NCBI GenBank assembly: GCA_902802985.1
Contig: CADCOE010000024.1
Coordinates: forward strand, 1 to 64,000
Length of the DNA: 64,000 nt
From: an uncultured Ruminococcus sp.
GTDB lineage: Bacteria; Bacillota; Clostridia; Oscillospirales; Acutalibacteraceae
Reading direction: 5' to 3'
Shown here: positions 303-20,652 of the stretch, one piece after another
How positions within the stretch are numbered: the stretch's first letter is position 1
Layout of the letters: each line of letters opens with the position of its first letter
Program-made: the position numbers and the translations under genes
The notes under the pieces: generated by a model
What the model was told of the DNA's origin: nothing
Seen by the model: the letters and a program-made list of their open reading frames with translations, nothing else
The model's database searches: none

Positions 303-430
303 TCAATTGCCTTAACTGTTGCTCGTGTTTACGATCTTTGCGATGATCTTTTGGTATGGAAAAAATGAACGAAGCAGAGGAAAAAGATCATAGGCTATAA
401 ATATCTTTGAATGATTACGGAGAATCAACA

Positions 431-1318
431 ATGCATGATATATGGAATCCGTGGCACGGCTGTAAAAAATGCAGCGAGGGCTGCCAGAACTGTTATATGT
501 ATTTTCTGGACGGGCAAAGAGGAAAAAGCGGTGCTGAAATCTACCGCACTAAAGCAGGCTTTCGCTATCCTCTTTCCAAAGACAGAAACGGACAGTATAA
601 AATCAAATGCGGCGAACGGTTGCGAGTATGCATGACCTCTGATTTCTTTTTAGAGGAAGCGGATGTATGGCGTGACGAGGCGTGGAGTATCATTCGGCAG
701 CGTCCCGACGTGGTATTCTTTCTGCTGACAAAACGCCCGCAGAGAGTTGAGGATTGTTTACCGCATGATTGGAACGACGGTTGGGAAAACGTTTTCTTCA
801 ATGTTAGTTGCGAAAATCAGAAAAGAGCTGACGAGAGAATCCCAATTTTACTGTCGCTGCCGTTCAAGCACAAGGGCATTATGTGCGCACCATTTATCGG
901 GGAAGTCAGTATTAAAAAATATCTGCCATATGGTCAGATTGAGCAGGTGATATGTGACGGTGAAAACTATTCGGGAGCCCGTCCCTGCCATTATGAATGG
1001 GTAAAAGCACTCAGAGATGAATGTATGGAATATAACGTGACTTTTGCTTTTATCGGTACAGGCAGACGATTTGTGAAAGACGGCAGACTGTATCGCATTG
1101 AAGGCAGCGAGCTTCAAGCAAATCAAGCATATCGTTCAGGCTTAAGTTATCAGGGAAAGCCGATTGATTTCAAGCTGTTTCATCCGTTAGGATCTTCTGT
1201 ATCAAGTGAAGAAAGATACAAGCCCTACTTCGGCAGCAAATGTGAAACCTGCGGTATGAAAATCATCTGCAACGGCTGTACACGGTGCAGTAAATGCGAG
1301 CTACCTATTAAAAATTGA
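431..1318 (+). CDS. DUF5131 / phage Gp37-Gp68-like protein
   Basis: 295 residues. The start at 431 is chosen because GGAG sits 8-9 bases upstream; an earlier ATG at 407 lacks this. The N-terminus has a tight cysteine cluster, C11, C14, C18 and C21 in WHGCKKCSEGCQNCY, followed by LLTKRPQRV near residue 100. Both are hallmarks of the DUF5131 (phage Gp37/Gp68) family, which is thought to be radical-SAM-like. The last 25 residues carry six more cysteines (CETCGMKIICNGCTRCSKC), which look like a small zinc- or iron-binding knuckle. The substrate is unknown. The gene stands alone between a possible immunity-gene fragment and a terminator, which suits a mobile cargo gene. Confidence 0.75.
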   Translation: MHDIWNPWHGCKKCSEGCQNCYMYFLDGQRGKSGAEIYRTKAGFRYPLSKDRNGQYKIKCGERLRVCMTSDFFLEEADVWRDEAWSIIRQRPDVVFFLLTKRPQRVEDCLPHDWNDGWENVFFNVSCENQKRADERIPILLSLPFKHKGIMCAPFIGEVSIKKYLPYGQIEQVICDGENYSGARPCHYEWVKALRDECMEYNVTFAFIGTGRRFVKDGRLYRIEGSELQANQAYRSGLSYQGKPIDFKLFHPLGSSVSSEERYKPYFGSKCETCGMKIICNGCTRCSKCELPIKN

Positions 1319-9206: not shown

Positions 9207-9241
9207 TGTATTTGTAATTTGTTTGAAAGGATTTGAAAAGT

Positions 9242-11518
9242 ATGAAAACATCCATCATCGGTTATCCGAGGATCGGCTCACTGCGTGAACTGAAATTTGC
9301 AAGCGAGAAATATTTTAAAGGTGAATTGTCCGAAGCAGAGCTTCAAAATACAGCCAAAGAATTAAGACTGAAAAATCTTAAAGAACAGAAGGAAAGCGGT
9401 CTTGATTTTATCCCGTCAAATGACTTTTCATTTTATGACGGAATGCTCGATACGGCTTTTCTTTTGAATGCAGTTTCTAAAAGATATAAAGAGCTTGGCT
9501 TATCAGAGCTTGACGAATATTTTGCGGCGGCAAGAGGCTATCAGGGCGAAAATGGTGACGTGAAAGCTCTTGCTATGAAAAAGTGGTTTAATACCAACTA
9601 TCACTATATGGTTCCCGAAATTGATGACGATACAGAGATAAAATTATTGGGCAGTAAGCCTTTTGAGCTTTTCAAAGAGGCTCTTGCAAACGGTATAAAA
9701 ACAAAGTCCGTTCTGATTGGTCCTTTTACATTTCTTGAATTGGCAAGATATACTGGCAAGAAAACAAAAGAGGATTTTGCAGAAGCAACAGCAAATGCCT
9801 ATATAGACATCATTGCAAAGCTTTCGGAGCTTGGTGCAGAATGGGTACAGCTTGACGAACCCTATCTTGTAAAAGATTTAAGTCAAGAAGATATTGCTTT
9901 ATTCAGGGCTTTGTATCAGAAAATACTTGAAAATAAAAAAGGTATTAAGGTTATCCTGCAAACCTATTTTGGCGATATAAGAGATTGCTATAACGAAGCA
10001 ACAGCTCTTGATTTTGACGGAATCGGTCTTGACTTCGTTGAGGGCAGAAAAACTTTGGAACTTGTAAAATCCAACGATTTTTCCAAAGACAAAATCCTTT
10101 TTGCAGGCATAGTTAACGGCAAAAATATATGGAAGAATCATTATACGAAATCTTTTGAAGTTCTAAACGAACTGAAAAAACAGGGAATCAATTTTGTTGT
10201 CGGCACTTCCTGTTCACTGCTTCATGTGCCTTACACGCTCGAAAATGAAACAAAACTTTCCGATGATTATAAAAAATATTTTGCGTATGCAAGTGAAAAG
10301 CTGCTCGAACTTGCGGAAATCAAGAAAATTATCGAATCCGCAAATCCGTTTGAAACTGCCGAATATAAAGCCAACGCAGAGCTTTTTACACAGCCGAGAA
10401 GCGGCAGCAATGCCGAAATAAGGGAAAAGGTTCAGGCTTTGTCAACCACCGATTTTACAAGATTTCCTACATTTGCTGAACGTGAGAAAATTCAGAAGGA
10501 AAAATTCAAGCTCCCTCTGTTCCCGACAACTACAATCGGTTCATTTCCTCAAACAGCAGAGGTTCGCAAAATAAGAGCAGGCTTCCGTAAGGGCGAAATC
10601 TCAGAAACGGATTACGAAAGCTTTTTGAAAGAAAAAATCTCAAACTGTATCAATCTTCAGGAACAAATCGGAATGGATGTGCTTGTTCATGGAGAATTTG
10701 AAAGAAACGACATGGTGGAATATTTCGGAGAATGCCTTGACGGTTATCTGTTCACCGAAAAAGCATGGGTGCAGTCCTACGGTACAAGATGTGTAAAACC
10801 GCCTATTGTATGGGGCGATATTTCCAGAGCAAAATCCATAACTGTCAAATGGTCGTCGTATGCACAAAGTTTGACAGAGAAGCCTGTTAAGGGTATGCTG
10901 ACAGGTCCTGTCACCATTCTCAACTGGTCGTTCCCGAGAGAGGATATTTCTCTGAAAGAAAGTGCCTATCAAATAGCCCTTGCCATTCGTGAAGAAGTAT
11001 TAGACCTTGAAGCAAACGGTATCAATATCATTCAGATCGATGAAGCGGCTCTCAGAGAAAAACTGCCCCTTCGCAGAAGTGATTGGAACAGTGAATATCT
11101 TGATTGGGCAATTCCTGCATTCCGATTGGTACACAGCGGCGTCAAACCCGAAACACAGATTCACACTCATATGTGCTACAGCGAATTTGCGGATATTATC
11201 GAAGATATCGATAATATGGACGCTGATGTTATCACCTTTGAGGCAAGCCGTTCCGATCTTACCATTCTTGATGTTCTGAAGGCTAAAAACTTTCGCACAG
11301 AAGTCGGTCCGGGTGTTTATGATATTCATTCGCCGAGAATCCCTACAAAGGAAGAAATCAAATCGGCACTCAAAAAAATGCTTGACCGTATTCCTGCTGA
11401 AAAACTTTGGGTCAATCCTGACTGTGGACTGAAAACAAGAGGCAATGAAGAAACCATACCCAGCCTTGAAAATCTTGTCGTTGCTGCAAAAGAAGTACGA
11501 AACACATATAATGAATAA
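9242..11518 (+). CDS. metE: Cobalamin-independent methionine synthase
   Basis: 758 residues, the full family length, giving methionine by transfer of a methyl group from methyl-tetrahydrofolate-polyglutamate to homocysteine. The N-terminal barrel starts [16 protein letters not shown]; the catalytic C-terminal barrel starts [20 protein letters not shown]. The zinc ligands are visible as His and Cys in [10 protein letters not shown], Glu in FEASRSD and Cys in [13 protein letters not shown] 9242 is preferred over TTG 9233 because AAAGGA lies about 10 bases upstream of it. It is monocistronic, ending before a terminator at 11842. The divergent LysR gene is its likely regulator. Confidence 0.96.
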
Positions 11519-11610: not shown

Positions 11611-11841
11611 ATGTGCTATTGGACAAACAGACGGATTTGTACTTTAAACGGTGAACTTCCTCCGGCTGTCAAGAGAACACTTTACTATAAAGCAAGCATA
11701 GCCGCTTGAATGGTTCAAATTCATCGCCGCATTTCAAGTGATATTTTTTTGATACCTGTTGCCCTTTTGTACTATGAAAAAACAGAAAAAAACATTCAAC
11801 TTAGGTCTCCTAATAGTAAAGAGGATATGCAAAAATTTTAG
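11611..11841 (+). pseudogene. Broken reading frame of unknown origin
   Basis: One frame gives MCYWTNRRICTLNGELPPAV then KRTLYYKASIAA, a single TGA at 11707-11709, then ATG and 43 more codons (MVQIHRRISSDIFLIPVALL...) to TAG at 11839-11841. No ribosome site is present. I do not recognise it; it looks like a remnant of an accessory gene. The rest of the 11519-12014 gap holds a terminator, repeats and a promoter. Confidence 0.3.
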
Positions 11842-11882
11842 AAGCAACCGAATGGTTCATTCTGCTGAACCGTTTGGTTGCT
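11842..11882 (+). terminator. Strong terminator
   Basis: AAGCAACCGAATGGTTCA (11842-11859) pairs over its full 18 bases, with two G-T wobbles, with TGAACCGTTTGGTTGCTT (to 11882), then TTTAA. It isolates the following unit from metE. Confidence 0.85.
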
Positions 11883-11893
11883 TTTAATCAGAA

Positions 11894-11985
11894 TTTTACT
11901 AAATAATACACTATTAATTATCACTAAATCGTATCATTTCTGTTGATAATAACTGCGTAATATGATAATATTAAATTTAGTAAAA
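11894..11985. repeat. ACTAAAT repeats bracketing a promoter
   Basis: TTTTACTAAAT (11894-11904) recurs as its exact reverse complement ATTTAGTAAAA (11975-11985), and TCACTAAATCG lies between them near 11921-11931. The promoter at 11943-11971 is enclosed, which suggests binding sites for a regulator acting by looping or cooperative binding. Confidence 0.45.
11943..11971 (+). promoter_or_regulatory. Promoter of the DUF4132 unit
   Basis: TTGATA (11943-11948) and TAATAT (11966-11971) with 17-bp spacing, 44 bp before the first gene. Confidence 0.55.
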
Positions 11986-12014
11986 TAAAATCGAAAACTG
12001 CAATGGAGGTAACT

Positions 12015-12434
12015 ATGGAACTGAATGTCAATGTAAAATCTGTTTCCGGGAAGAAAAACAAAATAACCACTATCCCCATTCCTTACAGTCAGGATAAAAT
12101 GACTGTCCGTGAACTGATAGAGGAAACTGTTCTATATTGCGTGAACGACTACAATAAGCGGAAAGAAAACGGCGACCTTCTTCGTGCTCTTCTCCCACAG
12201 GAAATAGAGGACAAAGCTGCCGGAGGCAAAATTTCTTTCGGGATGATTTATGGAGAAAAGGACGTTGATCTGAAAAAAGCAACAAATGATGCTGTACAGG
12301 CCTTTTCTGACGGAGTGGTTGCTGTTTTTGCAGACGAAAGACGGATCAAAAAACTTGATGAAGTATTGAAACTGACAGAAATACAAAACCTGACATTGAT
12401 AAAGCTGGTAATGCTTGCGGGCAGAATATGGTAA
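12015..12434 (+). CDS. Small partner protein of the DUF4132 gene, function unknown
   Basis: 139 residues from ATG 12015; GGAGG at 12005-12009 gives ideal spacing, unlike the ATG at 12003 that overlaps it. The N-terminal half alternates strand-like runs (LNVNVKSVSG, KITTIPIPYS) with a helix MTVRELIEETVLYCVNDYN; the C-terminal half reads KKATNDAVQAFSDGVVAVFA and ends in a hydrophobic TLIKLVMLAGRIW. The order strand-strand-helix-strand with 'tvrelie' recalls beta-grasp (ubiquitin-like) folds, but this is an impression only. It ends 13 bases before the DUF4132 gene, with that gene's ribosome site in between, so the two are made from one message and probably act together. Confidence 0.7.
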   Translation: MELNVNVKSVSGKKNKITTIPIPYSQDKMTVRELIEETVLYCVNDYNKRKENGDLLRALLPQEIEDKAAGGKISFGMIYGEKDVDLKKATNDAVQAFSDGVVAVFADERRIKKLDEVLKLTEIQNLTLIKLVMLAGRIW

Positions 12435-12447
12435 GGAGGAGAGCAAA

Positions 12448-15400
12448 ATGAGTATGGATTATAAAAATGCACTCAAAAAATATAATGAAAAATTCCGAGA
12501 GGATCATCAAAAGGAAATTGATGCTCTGAGTGAACGTGAAAAGCATATTTTTGATCAGATAATGACCGACCAATGGGTAAACTCAGAACAGGAAGGTTTT
12601 ATTGATAATCTGAATGATTATTTCAACAAGTATTATTCCAGACTGGTTAGCCTTATGGTTCCACTGCAGTTTCTTGACGATTTCAAGTATATACTCGGAA
12701 AATTCATTGAATTTCAATATGATGACAGCTATACCCGCCGAAGCTTCCGTAGCAAGGATTATTCTCCCTTCCTGCAAAGAGCGTTTTTGCTGCTGACAGC
12801 ATACTATCTTATGGGTTTTCGGGAAACAGACATAAACGATATGGGAAAATATGTATCCGGTAAGGACTGTCCTTTTGGTGAAGAATTAAGCCGTCACCAA
12901 ACCTTTTGTGCAGACCCGTATATTATTGCTGCTTGTATCGATAAGGGTGACACAACAGTGATTGAAACCGTCAGGGAAATGATGAACAGCGAACGCAACA
13001 CCGAAATACTGACTGTTTCGGTTATCCGTGCGGTTTTTTGCTGTGATAATACCGAGCTGCACGAACTCATATGCAGACTTCTGGTCGCCGCAAGGCTTTC
13101 CGAAGGACTGCGACAGGCTATCTGTGAAAATGCGGATTATGGCACAGCACAGGCATTTATTTGCTTGGTGAAAACCATCCAGGAAAACAATCTCATCCGT
13201 TTTTCTGCGGTGAAGCGGGCTGTTGGCACATGGACAGGGCTTTGCCGCTACGAAGATCCCGACCGTCTGGCAGATAAGATGTTATCGGATATACCATATG
13301 TTCTTGAAAGCCGTGAAAATGCACTTGAAAAAATCAGAACATCTGATCCTGTTGATATTTATATGGGACTCTGGGGTATCGGATTTTATGATGTCAGCAA
13401 GGTACTTGATATGATAAGAGGGCTTACCGGAATTCCCCTGAAAAAAGATATGAAAAAGATAATTGACCGGGTAAAAGATTTTTTCGGTAATTATAGTAAA
13501 GAACAACCGGAAAAAAGCTCTCAAATATTCGAGCCGGAGGAAATACACCTTCTTACCATAGGTTATTTCTGCCGAAATTTGGGCTATCCTGAAATCGCTA
13601 TGCAGATCGCTTTGGCGGTAACTGAAAAATATCCCGACAATTATAAGCTGTTTTCTGTTTTCAAGAATGATTATCCTTACAGTCAGTTTGTTGAATTCTA
13701 CGGCAGGGGGGAACCACACCTAAGAAAACAAATACATAAAGATAAACAGCTTGCTGCAATACATTATAATATAATGCGAAATATGTACGAGAAAATGCTG
13801 CACAAAGAAGAAAATTATTATCCTCTTCTGTATCCATGGTTTGGAACATCCGTTTCAAAAAGTGACATACTATATTGTATGCTCAACTGTGCGGATATAA
13901 TGGAGGATGATGAAAAGATCGACTTTATCTGTGATCATTTTTCAGAATTTGATACAAAAAAAAGGTATCAGGTCGCAAAAAAGGCGGGAAAAGTTATTCA
14001 TACACCGAAACAGCGTGAAACTATTATCAATGCCGTTGCCGACAAGGAAAGTATGACAAGGAGTACTGCTGTAAAGATACTCGAAAAAACAGAACTTACC
14101 GACAGCGAATACAAAACGATAGAAGGTTTTGCGAAATACAAGACAGCAGATCTGCGTTCCGGTGTGATTACACTGCTTAAAAAGCGTAAGAATAAGGATC
14201 TTGAGGAAAGCATTATCCGTATGCTTTCGGCTAAAAACGAAAATATCCGTCTTGCGGCTCTCGATCTATTGCGGTACGGTATCAGTACATATGCAGAATA
14301 TGATTTTTCAGCTTCAAAGCAGGCTGCTTCCGATATACCCTCTCCCACAGAAAGAGAACAGATACTGATTGAACAGTTGACCGTCAACAGTACATCTGAA
14401 AAAGTCACAAAGGATAATGGCTATGGTATGTATGATCCCAATGCACAGCTGGCTCCACCGAATTTCACACCGGATATTGGCGTTGTCAGAAACTTTTTCA
14501 ACATTTCCACAAATGAAGTCAATGATATATATTGTGGTCTGCTGAAAATCATAGACAATAATGCCGAAAGGGAATATACCTATGATGACGGCAATGAGCG
14601 TATTTTAGGTAATATGGGAACGATAATTCGAGGCTATCATCAATTACATGGTGATATTGCTGAACTTGAAAAAGAGGTTCCATTCTCTGAGCTTTGGAAT
14701 CAATTTTATGAAGAAACCATCAGAACACCTCAAAGATTTTTCTGCTATGTGTATGCCGGAGCATCGTTTGATACAACCCAGCTTTCGAAAGATGGATTTA
14801 ATACCGCCAAGAAAAATATGTGGCAGCTTTTCGGAGAACTGTCAGCTTACAGTTTGTCAGAGGAGCTCGGAGGGCAAGATGAGCGTGTCACAAGGTATAC
14901 TTTTCAATATTTGAATTATGATATTATTCAGTATCTGAAAAAACGATACAAACTTGGAATGCCAATGGAGATATTGCAGCATTTTGTCGGTTACCTTGCA
15001 CTTATTGTGCCAGCAGAGGAATTATGGCTTCCATATAAAAAGGATAACGGATATTATTACGGTTCAAGTCAAGAGTACGATTTTACTCTTGCTCCTCCCG
15101 TTTATCAATTAATATCAGAATTATACAGCAGGATCAATGAAGATTTTGAAACGAATTTCCGTTTGCTCCATCTATTGTCAGAAAAAATAGACGGAATCGG
15201 TCACTCAGAAAAAACTGACCAATACTGGTATAGAAGTACACATATCCCGGTGGAATACTACCTGAAAGCCTACCGTATCGGGATAATTGATCGTAATATC
15301 TTTCTGAAAGCTATGATGAGAATTGTTGGCCTAAAGGATGCCAATCGTGAGCTGAGTGTTTATGTATGCAATAAACCGCTGAGATTTAGCTTTTACGATC

Positions 15401-17613
15401 CCCGTGAAAACAGCCGTTATGTAAAGCTGCTCGCTGAAGAAGGAAAGTCCCTTTGTAATGATGATACCCTGCCCCATGACAGCCGACTTTATCAGGACGG
15501 AAATATGTTTGCTCAAACTATCATAGACAAAGTGTTGGATGTTGAGCTGAAACGCGGTGACAGCGAAACGGTATTCTCAAAGTCAATACACAGCATCAGA
15601 GCAATTTACGGTCTTGACAGGTTCATACAGATACTGAAAGCACTCGGCAATGAAGCTCTGAAAACCCGCAGCCGACAGATGTCCAAAAAGAAAAGTCTCA
15701 GTCATTTGCTGACCGTTTGCTATCCCACAGCGGACGACAGTTCCGAAAAGCTCAGAGAAATGCTGAAAGACTCAAAAATAACCACCAACAGACTGATTGA
15801 GGTGGCGATGTTCTCACCGCAATGGATAGATATTATTGAGGGTTATCTCGGCATAAAGGGAATGAAATCCGGATGCTATTATTTTATGGCTCATACTGCT
15901 GAAACTATTGATGAAAAACGTGAAGCTATCATTGCAAAATATACCCCTTTAACAAAAGAAGAACTTAACGGTGGCTGCTTTGATGTCAAGTGGTTCTTTG
16001 AGGTATATGAAACGCTGGGAGAAAAAACTTTTAAAAAGCTTTACCAAAGTGCAAAATATTCCTCCTCAGGAAACAAGCATACCCGTGCAAGAAAATATGC
16101 CGACGCTGCCCTCGGTAAAATGGATATTGAAGCGACAGAAGAACAGATCATCGATAAGAGAAACAAAGACCTGCTGATGGCACTGGCAATTATTCCGTCA
16201 AAGAAAAAATCAGATATACTTAACAGATATGAATTTATACAAAGATTCCTCAAGGAAAGTAAGCAGTTCGGCGCACAAAGGCGTGCAAGCGAGAGTGAAG
16301 CGTGTGCCTATGCACTAAAAAATCTTGCTGTCACCGCCGGATACAGTGACGAAACAAGGCTCATACTTTCAATGGAAACCGAGCTTGTGCAGGAAAACAG
16401 CGTCTATTTTGAAAACACCCGAATGGGGGATTATGATGTAAGAATTACTGTCAATTCCTTTGGAAAAGCCACTTTGACAGTAGAAAAGGACGGCAAAACG
16501 CTGAAATCCGTTCCTGCCGCAATTAAGAAGAATGACGAGTTTTTACAGATCAAGGAATTCTGCAATAAGCTAAAGCAGCAGTACAGCCGTACGGTCAAAA
16601 TGTTTGAAACTGCTATGGAGGAAAAGGATCGCTTTACCTTCGAAGAGCTTCGCAGACTGAGTGAAAATCCTGTCACAAAGGCAATCACAGAAAATATTGT
16701 ATTCATTTCCGACGACGATGAACCAATCAGTGGATTGCCAGTGAACAGTGGACTTTGTGATTATAGCGGAACAGTACATATTGTTTCTGGTGAAAAGCTC
16801 CTTCGTGCCGCACATCCGTTTGATCTGTATAAAAACGGCATCTGGGCGGATTATCAGAAGATGCTGCTGGAGCTTGGAAACAAAGAGGGCAGACGGCAGC
16901 CGTTCCGTCAGATATTCCGTGAACTTTATGTCAAGCTGCCAGAGGAAACGAACAAAACCCGTTCTTTGATGTTTGCCGGAAATCAGATACAGACAAAGAG
17001 AACAATTGGTGCCCTTAAAAATCGCCGCTGGGTGGCAGATTATGAAGACGGCTTGCAGAAGATCTATTACAAGGATAATATCATTGCTTCCATTTACGCA
17101 GAAGCAGACTGGTTCTCACCGGGAGATATTGAAGCACCGACACTGGAGGGTGTATTCTTCACCGACAGAAAAACAGGAAAGCTTTTGAAAATAGAGAATG
17201 TACCTGATATTATTTATTCGGAGATAATGCGTGATGTTGATCTTGCTGTCAGTGTAGCCCACGCAGGCGGAGTTGATCCGGAAACCAGCCATTCAACCGT
17301 TGAAATGCGTCGTGTTATTCTTGAATTCAATCTTTCGCTTTTCGGCATCAAAAATGTACACTTTGAAAAAAATCACGCCTTTATTGACGGAACGCACGGA
17401 AAATATACCGTTCATCTTGGAAGCGGCATAATACATAAAATTGGCGACCATCAGATCAATGTGATTGCAGTGGGCGGAGGCAAAAAGAGCAAGCTGTTCT
17501 TGCCATTCATTGATGAGGATCCGAAAACCGCTGAGATAATGACAAAAGTGCTGACCTTTGCGGAGGACAGCAAGATCAAAGATCCGTATATTATGGAGCA
17601 GATCAGAGGTTGA
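12448..17613 (+). CDS. Giant DUF4132-family protein
   Basis: 1721 residues from ATG 12448, with AAGGAGG 8-9 bases upstream. No signal peptide or membrane segment is visible, so it is cytoplasmic. Residues about 500-640 look like HEAT-type helical repeats (STAVKILEKTELTDSEYK, LRSGVITLLKKR, ENIRLAALDLLRYG). Residues about 1400-1570 match the DUF4132 core (SGLCDYSGTVHIVSGEKLLRA, LKNRRWVADYEDGLQKIYY, YAEADWFSPGD). The last 110 residues (VEMRRVILEFNLSLFGIKNV to the end) are the usual family tail. E. coli MolR/YehI belongs to this family; no biochemical role is established. Homologues often sit beside AAA/VWA genes, which are absent here, leaving only the 139-residue partner. Confidence 0.85.
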   Translation: MSMDYKNALKKYNEKFREDHQKEIDALSEREKHIFDQIMTDQWVNSEQEGFIDNLNDYFNKYYSRLVSLMVPLQFLDDFKYILGKFIEFQYDDSYTRRSFRSKDYSPFLQRAFLLLTAYYLMGFRETDINDMGKYVSGKDCPFGEELSRHQTFCADPYIIAACIDKGDTTVIETVREMMNSERNTEILTVSVIRAVFCCDNTELHELICRLLVAARLSEGLRQAICENADYGTAQAFICLVKTIQENNLIRFSAVKRAVGTWTGLCRYEDPDRLADKMLSDIPYVLESRENALEKIRTSDPVDIYMGLWGIGFYDVSKVLDMIRGLTGIPLKKDMKKIIDRVKDFFGNYSKEQPEKSSQIFEPEEIHLLTIGYFCRNLGYPEIAMQIALAVTEKYPDNYKLFSVFKNDYPYSQFVEFYGRGEPHLRKQIHKDKQLAAIHYNIMRNMYEKMLHKEENYYPLLYPWFGTSVSKSDILYCMLNCADIMEDDEKIDFICDHFSEFDTKKRYQVAKKAGKVIHTPKQRETIINAVADKESMTRSTAVKILEKTELTDSEYKTIEGFAKYKTADLRSGVITLLKKRKNKDLEESIIRMLSAKNENIRLAALDLLRYGISTYAEYDFSASKQAASDIPSPTEREQILIEQLTVNSTSEKVTKDNGYGMYDPNAQLAPPNFTPDIGVVRNFFNISTNEVNDIYCGLLKIIDNNAEREYTYDDGNERILGNMGTIIRGYHQLHGDIAELEKEVPFSELWNQFYEETIRTPQRFFCYVYAGASFDTTQLSKDGFNTAKKNMWQLFGELSAYSLSEELGGQDERVTRYTFQYLNYDIIQYLKKRYKLGMPMEILQHFVGYLALIVPAEELWLPYKKDNGYYYGSSQEYDFTLAPPVYQLISELYSRINEDFETNFRLLHLLSEKIDGIGHSEKTDQYWYRSTHIPVEYYLKAYRIGIIDRNIFLKAMMRIVGLKDANRELSVYVCNKPLRFSFYDPRENSRYVKLLAEEGKSLCNDDTLPHDSRLYQDGNMFAQTIIDKVLDVELKRGDSETVFSKSIHSIRAIYGLDRFIQILKALGNEALKTRSRQMSKKKSLSHLLTVCYPTADDSSEKLREMLKDSKITTNRLIEVAMFSPQWIDIIEGYLGIKGMKSGCYYFMAHTAETIDEKREAIIAKYTPLTKEELNGGCFDVKWFFEVYETLGEKTFKKLYQSAKYSSSGNKHTRARKYADAALGKMDIEATEEQIIDKRNKDLLMALAIIPSKKKSDILNRYEFIQRFLKESKQFGAQRRASESEACAYALKNLAVTAGYSDETRLILSMETELVQENSVYFENTRMGDYDVRITVNSFGKATLTVEKDGKTLKSVPAAIKKNDEFLQIKEFCNKLKQQYSRTVKMFETAMEEKDRFTFEELRRLSENPVTKAITENIVFISDDDEPISGLPVNSGLCDYSGTVHIVSGEKLLRAAHPFDLYKNGIWADYQKMLLELGNKEGRRQPFRQIFRELYVKLPEETNKTRSLMFAGNQIQTKRTIGALKNRRWVADYEDGLQKIYYKDNIIASIYAEADWFSPGDIEAPTLEGVFFTDRKTGKLLKIENVPDIIYSEIMRDVDLAVSVAHAGGVDPETSHSTVEMRRVILEFNLSLFGIKNVHFEKNHAFIDGTHGKYTVHLGSGIIHKIGDHQINVIAVGGGKKSKLFLPFIDEDPKTAEIMTKVLTFAEDSKIKDPYIMEQIRG

Positions 17614-17726: not shown

Positions 17727-17770
17727 GAGCAAGAACACCCTCACCTCTACAGGTGGGGGTGTTCTTGCCC
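17727..17770. repeat. Long hairpin resembling the element at 18874-18914
   Basis: GAGCAAGAACACCC...GGGTGTTCTTGCCC folds into a nearly perfect stem of about 17 bp with an inner CACCTCTACAGGTG. Read on the minus strand it starts GGGCAAGAAC and ends GTTCTTGCTC, the same layout as the plus-strand element beyond the lipase gene. It may also terminate transcription, although no clear T-tract follows. Confidence 0.6.
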
Positions 17771-17807: not shown

Positions 17808-18626
17808 TTAAAATTCTTTATCTTTCAGAGTTTGTAGTATTTCCCTGTACAGCTCTAAAATATCCGATACACCATCTCCGGACTTTTTTGTAAAGCGTCG
17901 CCGCCGCATATCCACCTCATCGCAGTGGGAAATACCTCTGCCGGAATTACTTTTTATTATACCTTTGAAGTCTCCGTGCATAACACCATCAGGTGTCAAA
18001 AATCCGTCATTTTCCCCCTCGATCATCTTTACTACTGAATATGGTATCAGCATAAATATATCACTAATGTTTTTATTCATTATGCAGGCATAACTCTGAT
18101 AATAAATATCCGGTTCGTCAGGATTGTCTTGATTAAACTGACGGGCAAAACCAGTGGAGAATGACTGGATTGTTTTGTATGTATGAGGAGCTTTGTCATC
18201 AAGAATTCTCATCCACAGATCTGTACAGCCGCTTCCGAGTTTAATAGGGAGCTGAGGTAAGGTTAATATTGCATCAATGGTTTTGGAACCATTATGAGGC
18301 GTATTGATAGTAGTAAGTGAAGCAACATATGGTGCCGTTCCCAACTGACAAATAGCATAACGCATATCCAGCCCGCCTTTTGAATGAGCGATTACATTCA
18401 GTTTTTCCGCTCCTGTTGCCAAAATGATTTTTTCGATGCGTTCTTTAAGAGTATATGCGTTATCCTCAATAGTACCGTTGCTGTCCTGACATCCATAAAA
18501 TACCCGGTTGTCGTCATCAATAAATATTTTCGGAATATGCCCCCAGTAATTAATCAATTTTCTATCACGAAATCCCATTCCGTGAACGAACAGTATAGGA
18601 TATTTAAGCAATATCATCCACCTCAT
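17808..18626 (-). CDS. Lipase / esterase-like alpha/beta hydrolase
   Basis: 272 residues from the first ATG. YPILFVHGMGFRDRK is the oxyanion-hole HG motif of class-2 lipases; NVIAHSKGGLDMRYAI holds the nucleophile Ser in an HSKGG elbow; TINTPHNGSKT is typical of PGAP1/lipase_2 proteins. The acid may be the Asp of GENDGFLTPDGV and the His that of GISHCDEVDM. No signal peptide is visible, so it is probably cytoplasmic. The start is uncertain: AGGTGG directly abuts the ATG at 18617, and a TTG at 18611 has better spacing. It stands alone between two matching hairpins, which suggests it arrived as cargo. Confidence 0.8.
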   Translation of the reverse strand: MRWMILLKYPILFVHGMGFRDRKLINYWGHIPKIFIDDDNRVFYGCQDSNGTIEDNAYTLKERIEKIILATGAEKLNVIAHSKGGLDMRYAICQLGTAPYVASLTTINTPHNGSKTIDAILTLPQLPIKLGSGCTDLWMRILDDKAPHTYKTIQSFSTGFARQFNQDNPDEPDIYYQSYACIMNKNISDIFMLIPYSVVKMIEGENDGFLTPDGVMHGDFKGIIKSNSGRGISHCDEVDMRRRRFTKKSGDGVSDILELYREILQTLKDKEF

Positions 18627-18855
18627 ACTATTACACGCAGTTTTTTGTCAACATTACCAATATAACCTAATGCATTTAAACTTAATCCCACTTCATCCTT
18701 TACCATATTTTTTCTATTGTTCCAAATGGCTTATTATAAATGAATATCCCATCTACATATTTTGTTAGAAAGATCAATCATTGTCAGCGTGGATTTCTAT
18801 ACTATGTTCTGCTTTTCCATTATAACATTATCGTTTTACAATACTAAGAAAAAAA

Positions 18856-18914
18856 GTCAGCCTTGCGGCTGACGGGCAATTCATCTCTCCGCCTATAGAG
18901 GCGGAGGATTTTTT
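18856..18914. mobile_element. Possible solitary IS200/IS605-type right end, also the phosphoglucomutase terminator
   Basis: Hairpin GTCAGCC-TTGC-GGCTGAC (18856-18873), then GGGCAATTCATC and a second hairpin CTCCGCCT-ATAG-AGGCGGAG (18887-18906), then GATTTTTTGCTC. A small hairpin followed by 'GGG(C)AATTCATC' and a GC-rich hairpin is the known look of IS200/IS605 right ends and of the 3' part of TnpB-linked RNAs. No tnpA or tnpB is nearby. On the minus strand the first hairpin is followed by TTTTTTTC and would end the phosphoglucomutase transcript. The remainder of 18627-18855 shows nothing. Confidence 0.55.
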
Positions 18915-18933
18915 GCTCATTTGGGTTAAAAAA

Positions 18934-20652
18934 TCAGATGCCAAGAATTTGTACCATAGACTTTACCATACTGTCAGCAGTAGCAAGAGCTTCCTCGTTT
19001 GTTTTGCCTACAGCGGTAATATAAACCTTGATTTTCGGTTCGGTACCCGATGGTCTTACAATAGCAGCACCGCCGCCTTCAAGAGAATAAGACAGAACAT
19101 TTGATTTAGGAAGATCGATTTCTTCTTGTACGCCTGTTGTCAGTGATTTGCTATAGGAATTGAGATAATCGGCGGTATCGGTTACTCTAAAGCCGGCGAT
19201 CTCTGTCGGATGGGCACTACGCAGAGAGGACATAATATCAGCCATTTTCTGCATACCGGCAGAACCGTCAAATTCAAAGCTTTCCGTTCTGTTGATATAA
19301 TATCCGTGTTCTTCGTAAATAGAATTCATTACCTGATCAAGAGTTTTACCCTGCTGACGGTAGTAAGCTGCCATTTCACAGATTAGCATAGAAGCAACAA
19401 CAGCATCCTTGTCCCTGACGTAAGAGCCGGCAAGATAGCCGTAACTTTCTTCAAAGCCAAACACGTATCTGTTTTCTTCGTGTTTCTGTTCCAGTAAAAG
19501 AATTTGTTCACCGATATATTTAAAACCTGTAAGGACTTTTTTAAGTTCACAGTTGTACTTTTCGCAAATTTTGTCCACGAGCTTACTGGTAACGATAGTT
19601 CTTACAGCAACAGGATTTTGGGGAAGTGTACCGTTTTTTCTGCGGCAGTCCAAGATATAATTCATCAGCATAATACCGGTTTCATTACCGGACATCAAAC
19701 GATAACCTTCGCTGCACTTTACGGCAATGCCGACACGGTCGCTGTCGGGGTCTGTTGCCAACAGAAGATCCGGCTGTTCCTTTTCACAAAGATCAAGACC
19801 AAGAGCGAGTGCTTCTTTGATTTCCGGATTAGGATAAGGACAGGTAGTAAAATTACCGTCAGGATTTTCCTGTTCGGGAACCACAATGACATTTTCTACA
19901 CCGATCTGTGACAGAACCTTTCTGACCAGTTTATTTCCGGCACCATTCAGCGGTGTATATACTACTTTTAGTTCGGAATTTTTGCAGATACCGGGGTTAA
20001 CCGACTGTTTTCTGACGTTTTCTAAATAGCTGTCATACAGATCTTCACTGATGATTTCGATGCAGCCGTCTGCAACACCCTTGTCAAAATCAATGAGCTT
20101 AATATCACCGTTAAAGTAATCAACATTCTGGATTTCTTCAAAAACGGCATTAGCGTTCACATCTGTCATCTGACAACCGTCATTGCCGTAGCATTTATAG
20201 CCGTTATATTTAGCGGGGTTGTGGCTTGCTGTAACCATAATGCCGGCATCGGTTTTTAATTCACGCACAGCAAATGAAACAACGGGAGTCGGTTGAAGCT
20301 CGGAAGAGATATAAGCTTTGATACCGTTTGCGGCAAGTACTCTGGCGGCCTCTCTGGCAAACAGATCTGCCTTAATGCGTGAATCATAAGAAATCGCAAC
20401 GGACGGATTGGGATATTTTTTATTGAGGAAGTTGGCAAGACCTTGTGTAGCACGGCGAACAGTATACACATTCATACGATTGGTACCTGCACCGATAACA
20501 CCTCTCAAGCCTGCTGTGCCAAAGTTCAGTTCACGATAAAAACGTTCATAGATTTCATCTTCATTATTTTGAATGCTCTGCAGTTCTTCAATGAGATCTT
20601 TGTCATCATTGGCACTGTTGAGCCATAAATCATAAATTGTTTTTGTTTCCAT
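18934..20652 (-). CDS. Phosphoglucomutase / phosphomannomutase
   Basis: 572 residues, the size of the PgcA-type enzymes of Firmicutes that interconvert glucose 1- and 6-phosphate. In order: TAGLRGVIGAGTNRMN (substrate loop), the active serine S143 in MVTASHNPAKYNG, metal loop DPDSDRVG, sugar-recognition loop GFEESYGYL, and phosphate-binding RPSGTEPKIKVY. All four motifs are intact, unlike those of the paralogue at 21923. It is monocistronic with its own promoter and terminator. It supplies glucose 1-phosphate for glycogen or cell-surface polymers. Confidence 0.93.
   Translation of the reverse strand: METKTIYDLWLNSANDDKDLIEELQSIQNNEDEIYERFYRELNFGTAGLRGVIGAGTNRMNVYTVRRATQGLANFLNKKYPNPSVAISYDSRIKADLFAREAARVLAANGIKAYISSELQPTPVVSFAVRELKTDAGIMVTASHNPAKYNGYKCYGNDGCQMTDVNANAVFEEIQNVDYFNGDIKLIDFDKGVADGCIEIISEDLYDSYLENVRKQSVNPGICKNSELKVVYTPLNGAGNKLVRKVLSQIGVENVIVVPEQENPDGNFTTCPYPNPEIKEALALGLDLCEKEQPDLLLATDPDSDRVGIAVKCSEGYRLMSGNETGIMLMNYILDCRRKNGTLPQNPVAVRTIVTSKLVDKICEKYNCELKKVLTGFKYIGEQILLLEQKHEENRYVFGFEESYGYLAGSYVRDKDAVVASMLICEMAAYYRQQGKTLDQVMNSIYEEHGYYINRTESFEFDGSAGMQKMADIMSSLRSAHPTEIAGFRVTDTADYLNSYSKSLTTGVQEEIDLPKSNVLSYSLEGGGAAIVRPSGTEPKIKVYITAVGKTNEEALATADSMVKSMVQILGI

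Follow-up and report, generated by a model that had tools for sequence, protein, structure and literature searches.

Giant DUF5724-DUF4132-DUF7737 proteins are paired with a near-obligate small protein of predicted ubiquitin-like fold

The window analysed here, a 64,000-nt stretch of DNA from an uncultured Ruminococcus sp., carries two forward-strand genes that form a tight unit. The small gene, P0001 (12015..12434, 139 aa), starts with ATG at 12015, stops at 12432-12434, and has GGAGG 5 nt upstream. The giant gene, P0002 (12448..17613, 1721 aa), starts with ATG at 12448, stops at 17611-17613, and is preceded by AGGAGG. The two are separated by a gap of 13 bp, and both ORFs, with their good ribosome sites, were found where the first-pass annotation had placed them. 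That annotation had also described broken reading frames on the flanks, which we ruled out: the upstream metE-like gene (9233-11518) and the downstream alpha/beta hydrolase gene (17808-18626, reverse strand) are both complete ORFs. P0001 is single copy in its own genome.

The promoter and insulating terminator first proposed for the unit were recovered in part. A candidate promoter (TTGATA-17-TAATAT, the second hexamer preceded by TG; 11943..11971, forward strand) lies 43 nt upstream of P0001, but it comes from a consensus scan only, in which promoter-like sites in the region were no more frequent than in shuffled sequence. Upstream insulation could come from a terminator-like hairpin after metE (11838..11887, forward strand) with 22-nt arms, 86% complementary, and a 6-nt loop followed by TTTTAA. 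An 18-bp-stem hairpin (17729..17768; -33.9 kcal/mol, z -7.0) separates the convergent giant and hydrolase genes. Hairpins thus stand on both sides of the unit, but the T-run is found after metE and the downstream hairpin has no T-tract/U-tract. A perfect 12-nt inverted repeat, ATTTTACTAAAT / ATTTAGTAAAAT (11893-11904 and 11975-11986), brackets the candidate promoter and is a possible operator, though it is AT-rich and could have arisen by chance. Elsewhere in the window, an ORF at 407-1315 (forward strand) matched the PADLOC models PDC-M30B (E 3e-29) and PDC-M41B (E 8e-28), which carry a candidate-defence label. An 80-120 nt stretch at ~18808-18949, between the hydrolase and phosphoglucomutase genes, is a dispersed intergenic repeat: other genomes in the genus hold many copies at 80-90%, and there is one at G000:C27.

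P0002 contained three Pfam domains, all above the gathering score: PF18991 DUF5724 (943 bits, E 4e-283), PF13569 DUF4132 (residues 1349-1528; 125 bits, E 3e-36), and PF24879 DUF7737 (residues 1618-1719; 100 bits, E 8e-29). The second of these agrees with the initial labelling of the protein as a DUF4132-type giant. A HEAT-like middle had also been suggested, and HEAT-like repeats were seen around residues 494-549, within DUF5724, with a Pfam HEAT_2 score of 27.3 bits that falls just under the 27.7 cut-off. PADLOC returned only a weak match to HEAT-ARM_XIII (E 2e-4). The C-terminal 702 residues were modelled at pLDDT 86.1, helical first and then mixed alpha/beta. Structure searches of PDB and BFVD gave this core no significant match and hence no fold assignment. 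Sequence searches of PDB likewise gave nothing. The most conserved motifs of the giant were FGAQRxxSE, QPFxQxFRE, RDxDLxVxVAHxGxVDPExSxST, and DPxTAE...KIxDP, and no cysteine was among its listed invariant positions. The C-terminal core may be catalytic. To our knowledge, DUF4132 giants occur in many bacteria and have no known role. The giant gene was interrupted by a frameshift or an in-frame stop codon in loci L030, L042, L087, L103, and L080 and in genomes G586, G433, and G728; assembly error, decay, or phase variation are possible causes.

The small protein had no family in Pfam, NCBIfam, PADLOC, or PHROGs. Its AlphaFold2 model (pLDDT 72.9, pTM 0.66) had the order b-b-a-(a-a)-b-b-b-b, which agrees with the b-b-a-b-b(-b) order of beta-grasp folds. 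The top 50 Foldseek matches in PDB were beta-grasp by description, with a best E of 0.02 and none reaching E 0.001; they comprised superantigen-like C-domains, ubiquitin and its variants, SUMO, NEDD8, and Ras-binding domains, as well as a bacterial multi-ubiquitin protein (8u38) and a Bacteroides fragilis ubiquitin-like protein (8hm2). Weak ThiS matches were found in 3/69 small-protein members. Aligning the small-protein profile to single MoaD and ThiS sequences with hhalign gave nothing, an uninformative result since single sequences are shallow. The Deinococcus radiodurans orthologue described below, DRA0165, was threaded independently onto MOCS2/MoaD, SAMP1, and Urm1-type structures (PMC9650054). 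The first-pass annotation had raised a beta-grasp fold as a possibility, and these results favor it: the small protein probably has a beta-grasp (ubiquitin-like) fold, a structure prediction that we hold with moderate confidence. It would share that fold class with MoaD, ThiS, Urm1, SAMP1, YukD, and bacterial ubiquitin-like proteins. Unlike these prokaryotic relatives, it has a two-helix insert after the first helix, motifs of its own (GKVxFG, AxxxFxDG, and TFIRLTM[LF][AS]G), and neither a match to MoaD or ThiS in sequence nor a linked E1, E2, or protease.

We scanned GTDB genomes with an alignment of the giant, which found at least 553 relatives, and kept the 80 best-scoring as loci; remoter giants may differ. 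Using a profile of the small protein, we found the small gene beside the giant in 66/67 loci with upstream sequence, while 13 of the 80 were cut by a contig edge. In Treponema (L082) the small gene was directly downstream of the giant. The single exception, L073 from Butyrivibrio AE3009, was an orphan giant in a genome whose second giant has a small gene just upstream. Genome samples agreed with the locus counts. Among 299 genomes sampled across the phylum, the small gene and an above-cut-off DUF5724 co-occurred, adjacent, in the same seven, and among 200 genomes from the family, the small gene was present in three, the same three in which DUF5724 passed the cut-off. Eight genomes of the class sample were above the DUF5724 cut-off, and the small gene was present wherever upstream sequence was readable (7/8 either could be read as far as the small gene or its vicinity or were broken by contig ends). 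Public plasmid records added the pair in Bacteroides finegoldii and four Deinococcus. In all, the pair was found in Bacillota, Bacteroidota, Spirochaetota, and Deinococcota, with a median gap of 24 nt between the genes (<=50 nt in 45/65). Neighborhood counts had been put forward with the first-pass annotation as one way to check whether the small gene is conserved beside the giants, and it is (66/67 loci, 7/7 genomes). The small gene is therefore a near-obligate partner of the giant and the pair is a conserved unit. Both proteins have previously been noticed singly, and in the open-access literature we found no account that treats the pair as a unit throughout the family.

No third gene was conserved beside the pair in the 80 loci, where only scattered transporters and signalling proteins occurred, and no AAA or VWA gene was conserved there either. 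The small protein is thus the constant partner, as had been suspected when AAA/VWA companions appeared to be missing from the window. Pairwise distances of the small and giant proteins were strongly correlated across 61 loci (r=0.90, against at most 0.16 in permutations), and the two proteins had equal mean divergence (0.59 and 0.58). This correlation reflects co-inheritance and would be expected from simple co-inheritance as well, so r alone does not imply contact. The small gene is under purifying selection (dN/dS about 0.06-0.15 in close pairs). One Lachnospiraceae MAG carried a tandem duplication on a single contig, in the order giant, small gene, giant (L033, 255-10749).

A different arrangement surrounds the DUF4132 protein of E. 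coli. There, yehI-yehL-yehM-yehP-yehQ encode DUF4132, MoxR AAA+, DUF5682, VWA, and SWIM proteins. The DUF4132 core of YehI aligned to the C-terminal region of the giant (hhalign probability 95%, E 3e-8), but YehI has DUF4132 alone, without DUF5724 and DUF7737, and has the MoxR AAA+ (yehL), VWA (yehP), and SWIM partners instead of a small protein. MoxR AAA+ and VWA genes were absent at the window unit, which is flanked by metE and the hydrolase. Speaking of "DUF4132 genes" in general, as the first description did, was accordingly too broad: the pairing holds for DUF5724-DUF4132-DUF7737 giants, and YehI has no recognisable small partner.

The D. radiodurans pair in our scan (L025) is DRA0165-DRA0166. 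Both genes have been assigned to the DdrO regulon, and their motif is given as GGTTATGCTATTTACATAAC (PMC8533742); we make the assignment because that exact motif precedes the small gene of L025, by 63 bp. The pair also stands after a thioredoxin, as expected for DRA0164. Gene order, spacing, the DUF5724-DUF4132-DUF7737 giant, and the homologous small protein are all the same as in the window, making the two pairs orthologous, although identity to the window pair is only about 31% (small) and 26% (giant), and the Deinococcus small protein ends in AGG where the window type has AGRxW. Deinococcus D7000 and D. psychrotolerans carried the same 17-base core motif ahead of the small gene, and D. ficus had there a degenerate version with two mismatches, so that a DdrO-type motif was upstream in 4/4 Deinococcus loci examined (one degenerate). 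D. ficus also had a DdrO-type motif, TTATGCTATTTACGTAA (L024, 1525-1541), before an operon of hypothetical, DUF6745, VWA, and glutathionylspermidine synthase-like genes about 10 kb from the pair, which is a possible further damage-regulated cluster.

The two Deinococcus proteins have been handled separately in the literature. DRA0166 protein increased after mitomycin C only when IrrE was present (PMC8533742). DRA0165 was studied as SEP068184: the protein increased after gamma rays and H2O2, bound Trx1, and pulled down 157 proteins in co-IP, and its deletion left cells viable, raised H2O2 survival, and did not change DRA0166 expression (PMC9650054). Among the co-IP partners, the text gives Trx1, chaperones, and translation proteins by name and makes no mention of DRA0166 (PMC9650054). 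SEP068184 was also stated to be Deinococcus-only and without an RDRM (PMC9650054); both statements are contradicted by our searches.

Stress control was much less evident outside Deinococcus. No DdrO motif was found upstream of the window copy, where the best match to GAACN4GTTC had 3 mismatches and there was no LexA box. Perfect LexA-type boxes occurred in 2/67 upstream regions (expected 0.16), GAACAAAAGTTC and GAACAGACGTTC, before the small gene at L035 (-88) and L059 (-135), respectively. Judging from these boxes, some Lachnospiraceae may place the pair under SOS control. General SOS control in Bacillota was rejected, as two boxes exceed chance but are too few and the window has none. For the same reasons, to place the window copy under stress control is to extrapolate: the stress role initially suggested for it has been documented in the orthologous Deinococcus genes (PMC8533742, PMC9650054) and is not matched by a LexA box in the window.

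Defence had been the other suggestion. The pair is patchily distributed (7/299 phylum genomes, 3/200 family genomes), and its two-gene compactness and HEAT giant with the weak HEAT-ARM_XIII match would suit an anti-phage or other conflict module. However, the window copy is surrounded by housekeeping genes, 0/9 of the nearest tested genes matched PADLOC, neighbors varied at random between the 80 loci, and in Deinococcus the orthologous operon is controlled by DNA damage. Viral contigs and phage records were searched for carriage of the pair and yielded no copy, and PHROGs gave nothing. We consider a conflict role improbable. The position of the small gene first, the tight spacing, and the obligate pairing are also what would be expected if the giant were a toxin and the small protein its antitoxin. 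We know of no toxin that resembles a 1700-aa giant, however, and the viability of D. radiodurans without DRA0165, with DRA0166 expression unchanged, and the additional giant of Butyrivibrio AE3009, which has no small gene beside it, both argue against this arrangement, to which we give very little credence.

The C-terminus of the small protein bears on whether it is conjugated. It retains a glycine, followed by R-[MLI]-W in most species (about 40/66) and by W or nothing in others. Six small proteins from the genome scan stop at this glycine, and Deinococcus versions end ...ALAGG. Three ThiF-family E1-like proteins, unlinked to the pair, are encoded in the same genome as the window pair. The small protein could thus be a covalent modifier, conjugated like ubiquitin, SAMP1, or Urm1 after activation by a ThiF-type E1 located elsewhere, with the giant as a stress ligase or receptor that chooses targets; the weak ThiS matches, the DRA0165 threading, and the 157 co-precipitated proteins point the same way. 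Against this, the tail after the glycine is itself conserved, which does not resemble a removable propeptide, the 80 loci show no conserved E1, E2, or protease gene next to the pair, and the giant lacks a cysteine among its listed invariant positions. The window protein itself ends AGRIW, with no C-terminal GG and no linked E1. Conjugation is therefore unlikely in our assessment. The MoaD/ThiS-like fold hints and the Deinococcus GG end, along with the old MolR name, might also suggest a sulfur carrier or molybdenum-cofactor accessory, but most small proteins lack a GG end, the pair has no conserved moa, moe, or thi neighbor, and molybdate genes did not respond together with the DRA0165-DRA0166 operon in D. 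radiodurans (PMC8533742). That role seems highly improbable.

We propose, at roughly even chances of being correct, that the pair is a two-gene stress-response module in which a dedicated, non-covalent ubiquitin-fold subunit serves a HEAT-scaffold giant, whose C-terminal core is highly conserved, during damage and oxidative stress. The small protein would be made just upstream of the giant and in similar amounts, and would most likely dock on it non-covalently, using its conserved face together with the [AS]G-RxW tail at its C-terminus. Once docked, it would license or direct the giant, which might then recognise damaged or oxidised client complexes or assemble other factors on its helical scaffold. 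The physical complex, its stoichiometry, the job of the C-terminal core, and the same stress role in Bacillota copies, including that of the window, are what we infer here. Several observations run counter to the stress-module proposal: cells deleted for DRA0165 were more, not less, H2O2-resistant, DRA0166 goes unmentioned in the DRA0165 co-IP text, confidence in the beta-grasp model is moderate and no Foldseek match reaches E 0.001, and stress control was seen in Deinococcus only, with perfect boxes in just 2/67 upstream regions. More tentatively, and with considerable doubt, the pair may be an undescribed bacterial ubiquitin-like system, in which a stress-induced ubiquitin-fold protein works with a giant HEAT-scaffold receptor or ligase without a linked E1, E2, or protease, across at least four phyla.

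A large branch of DUF4132 giants therefore has a near-invariant partner of predicted ubiquitin fold. The DNA-damage operon DRA0165-DRA0166 of Deinococcus falls within it; this joins two separate experimental literatures and corrects the two published statements on SEP068184, namely its restriction to Deinococcus and its lack of an RDRM. The phenotype of DRA0165 should now be reinterpreted with DRA0166 in mind, and the Deinococcus pair would offer a tractable model for what may be an overlooked bacterial stress module.
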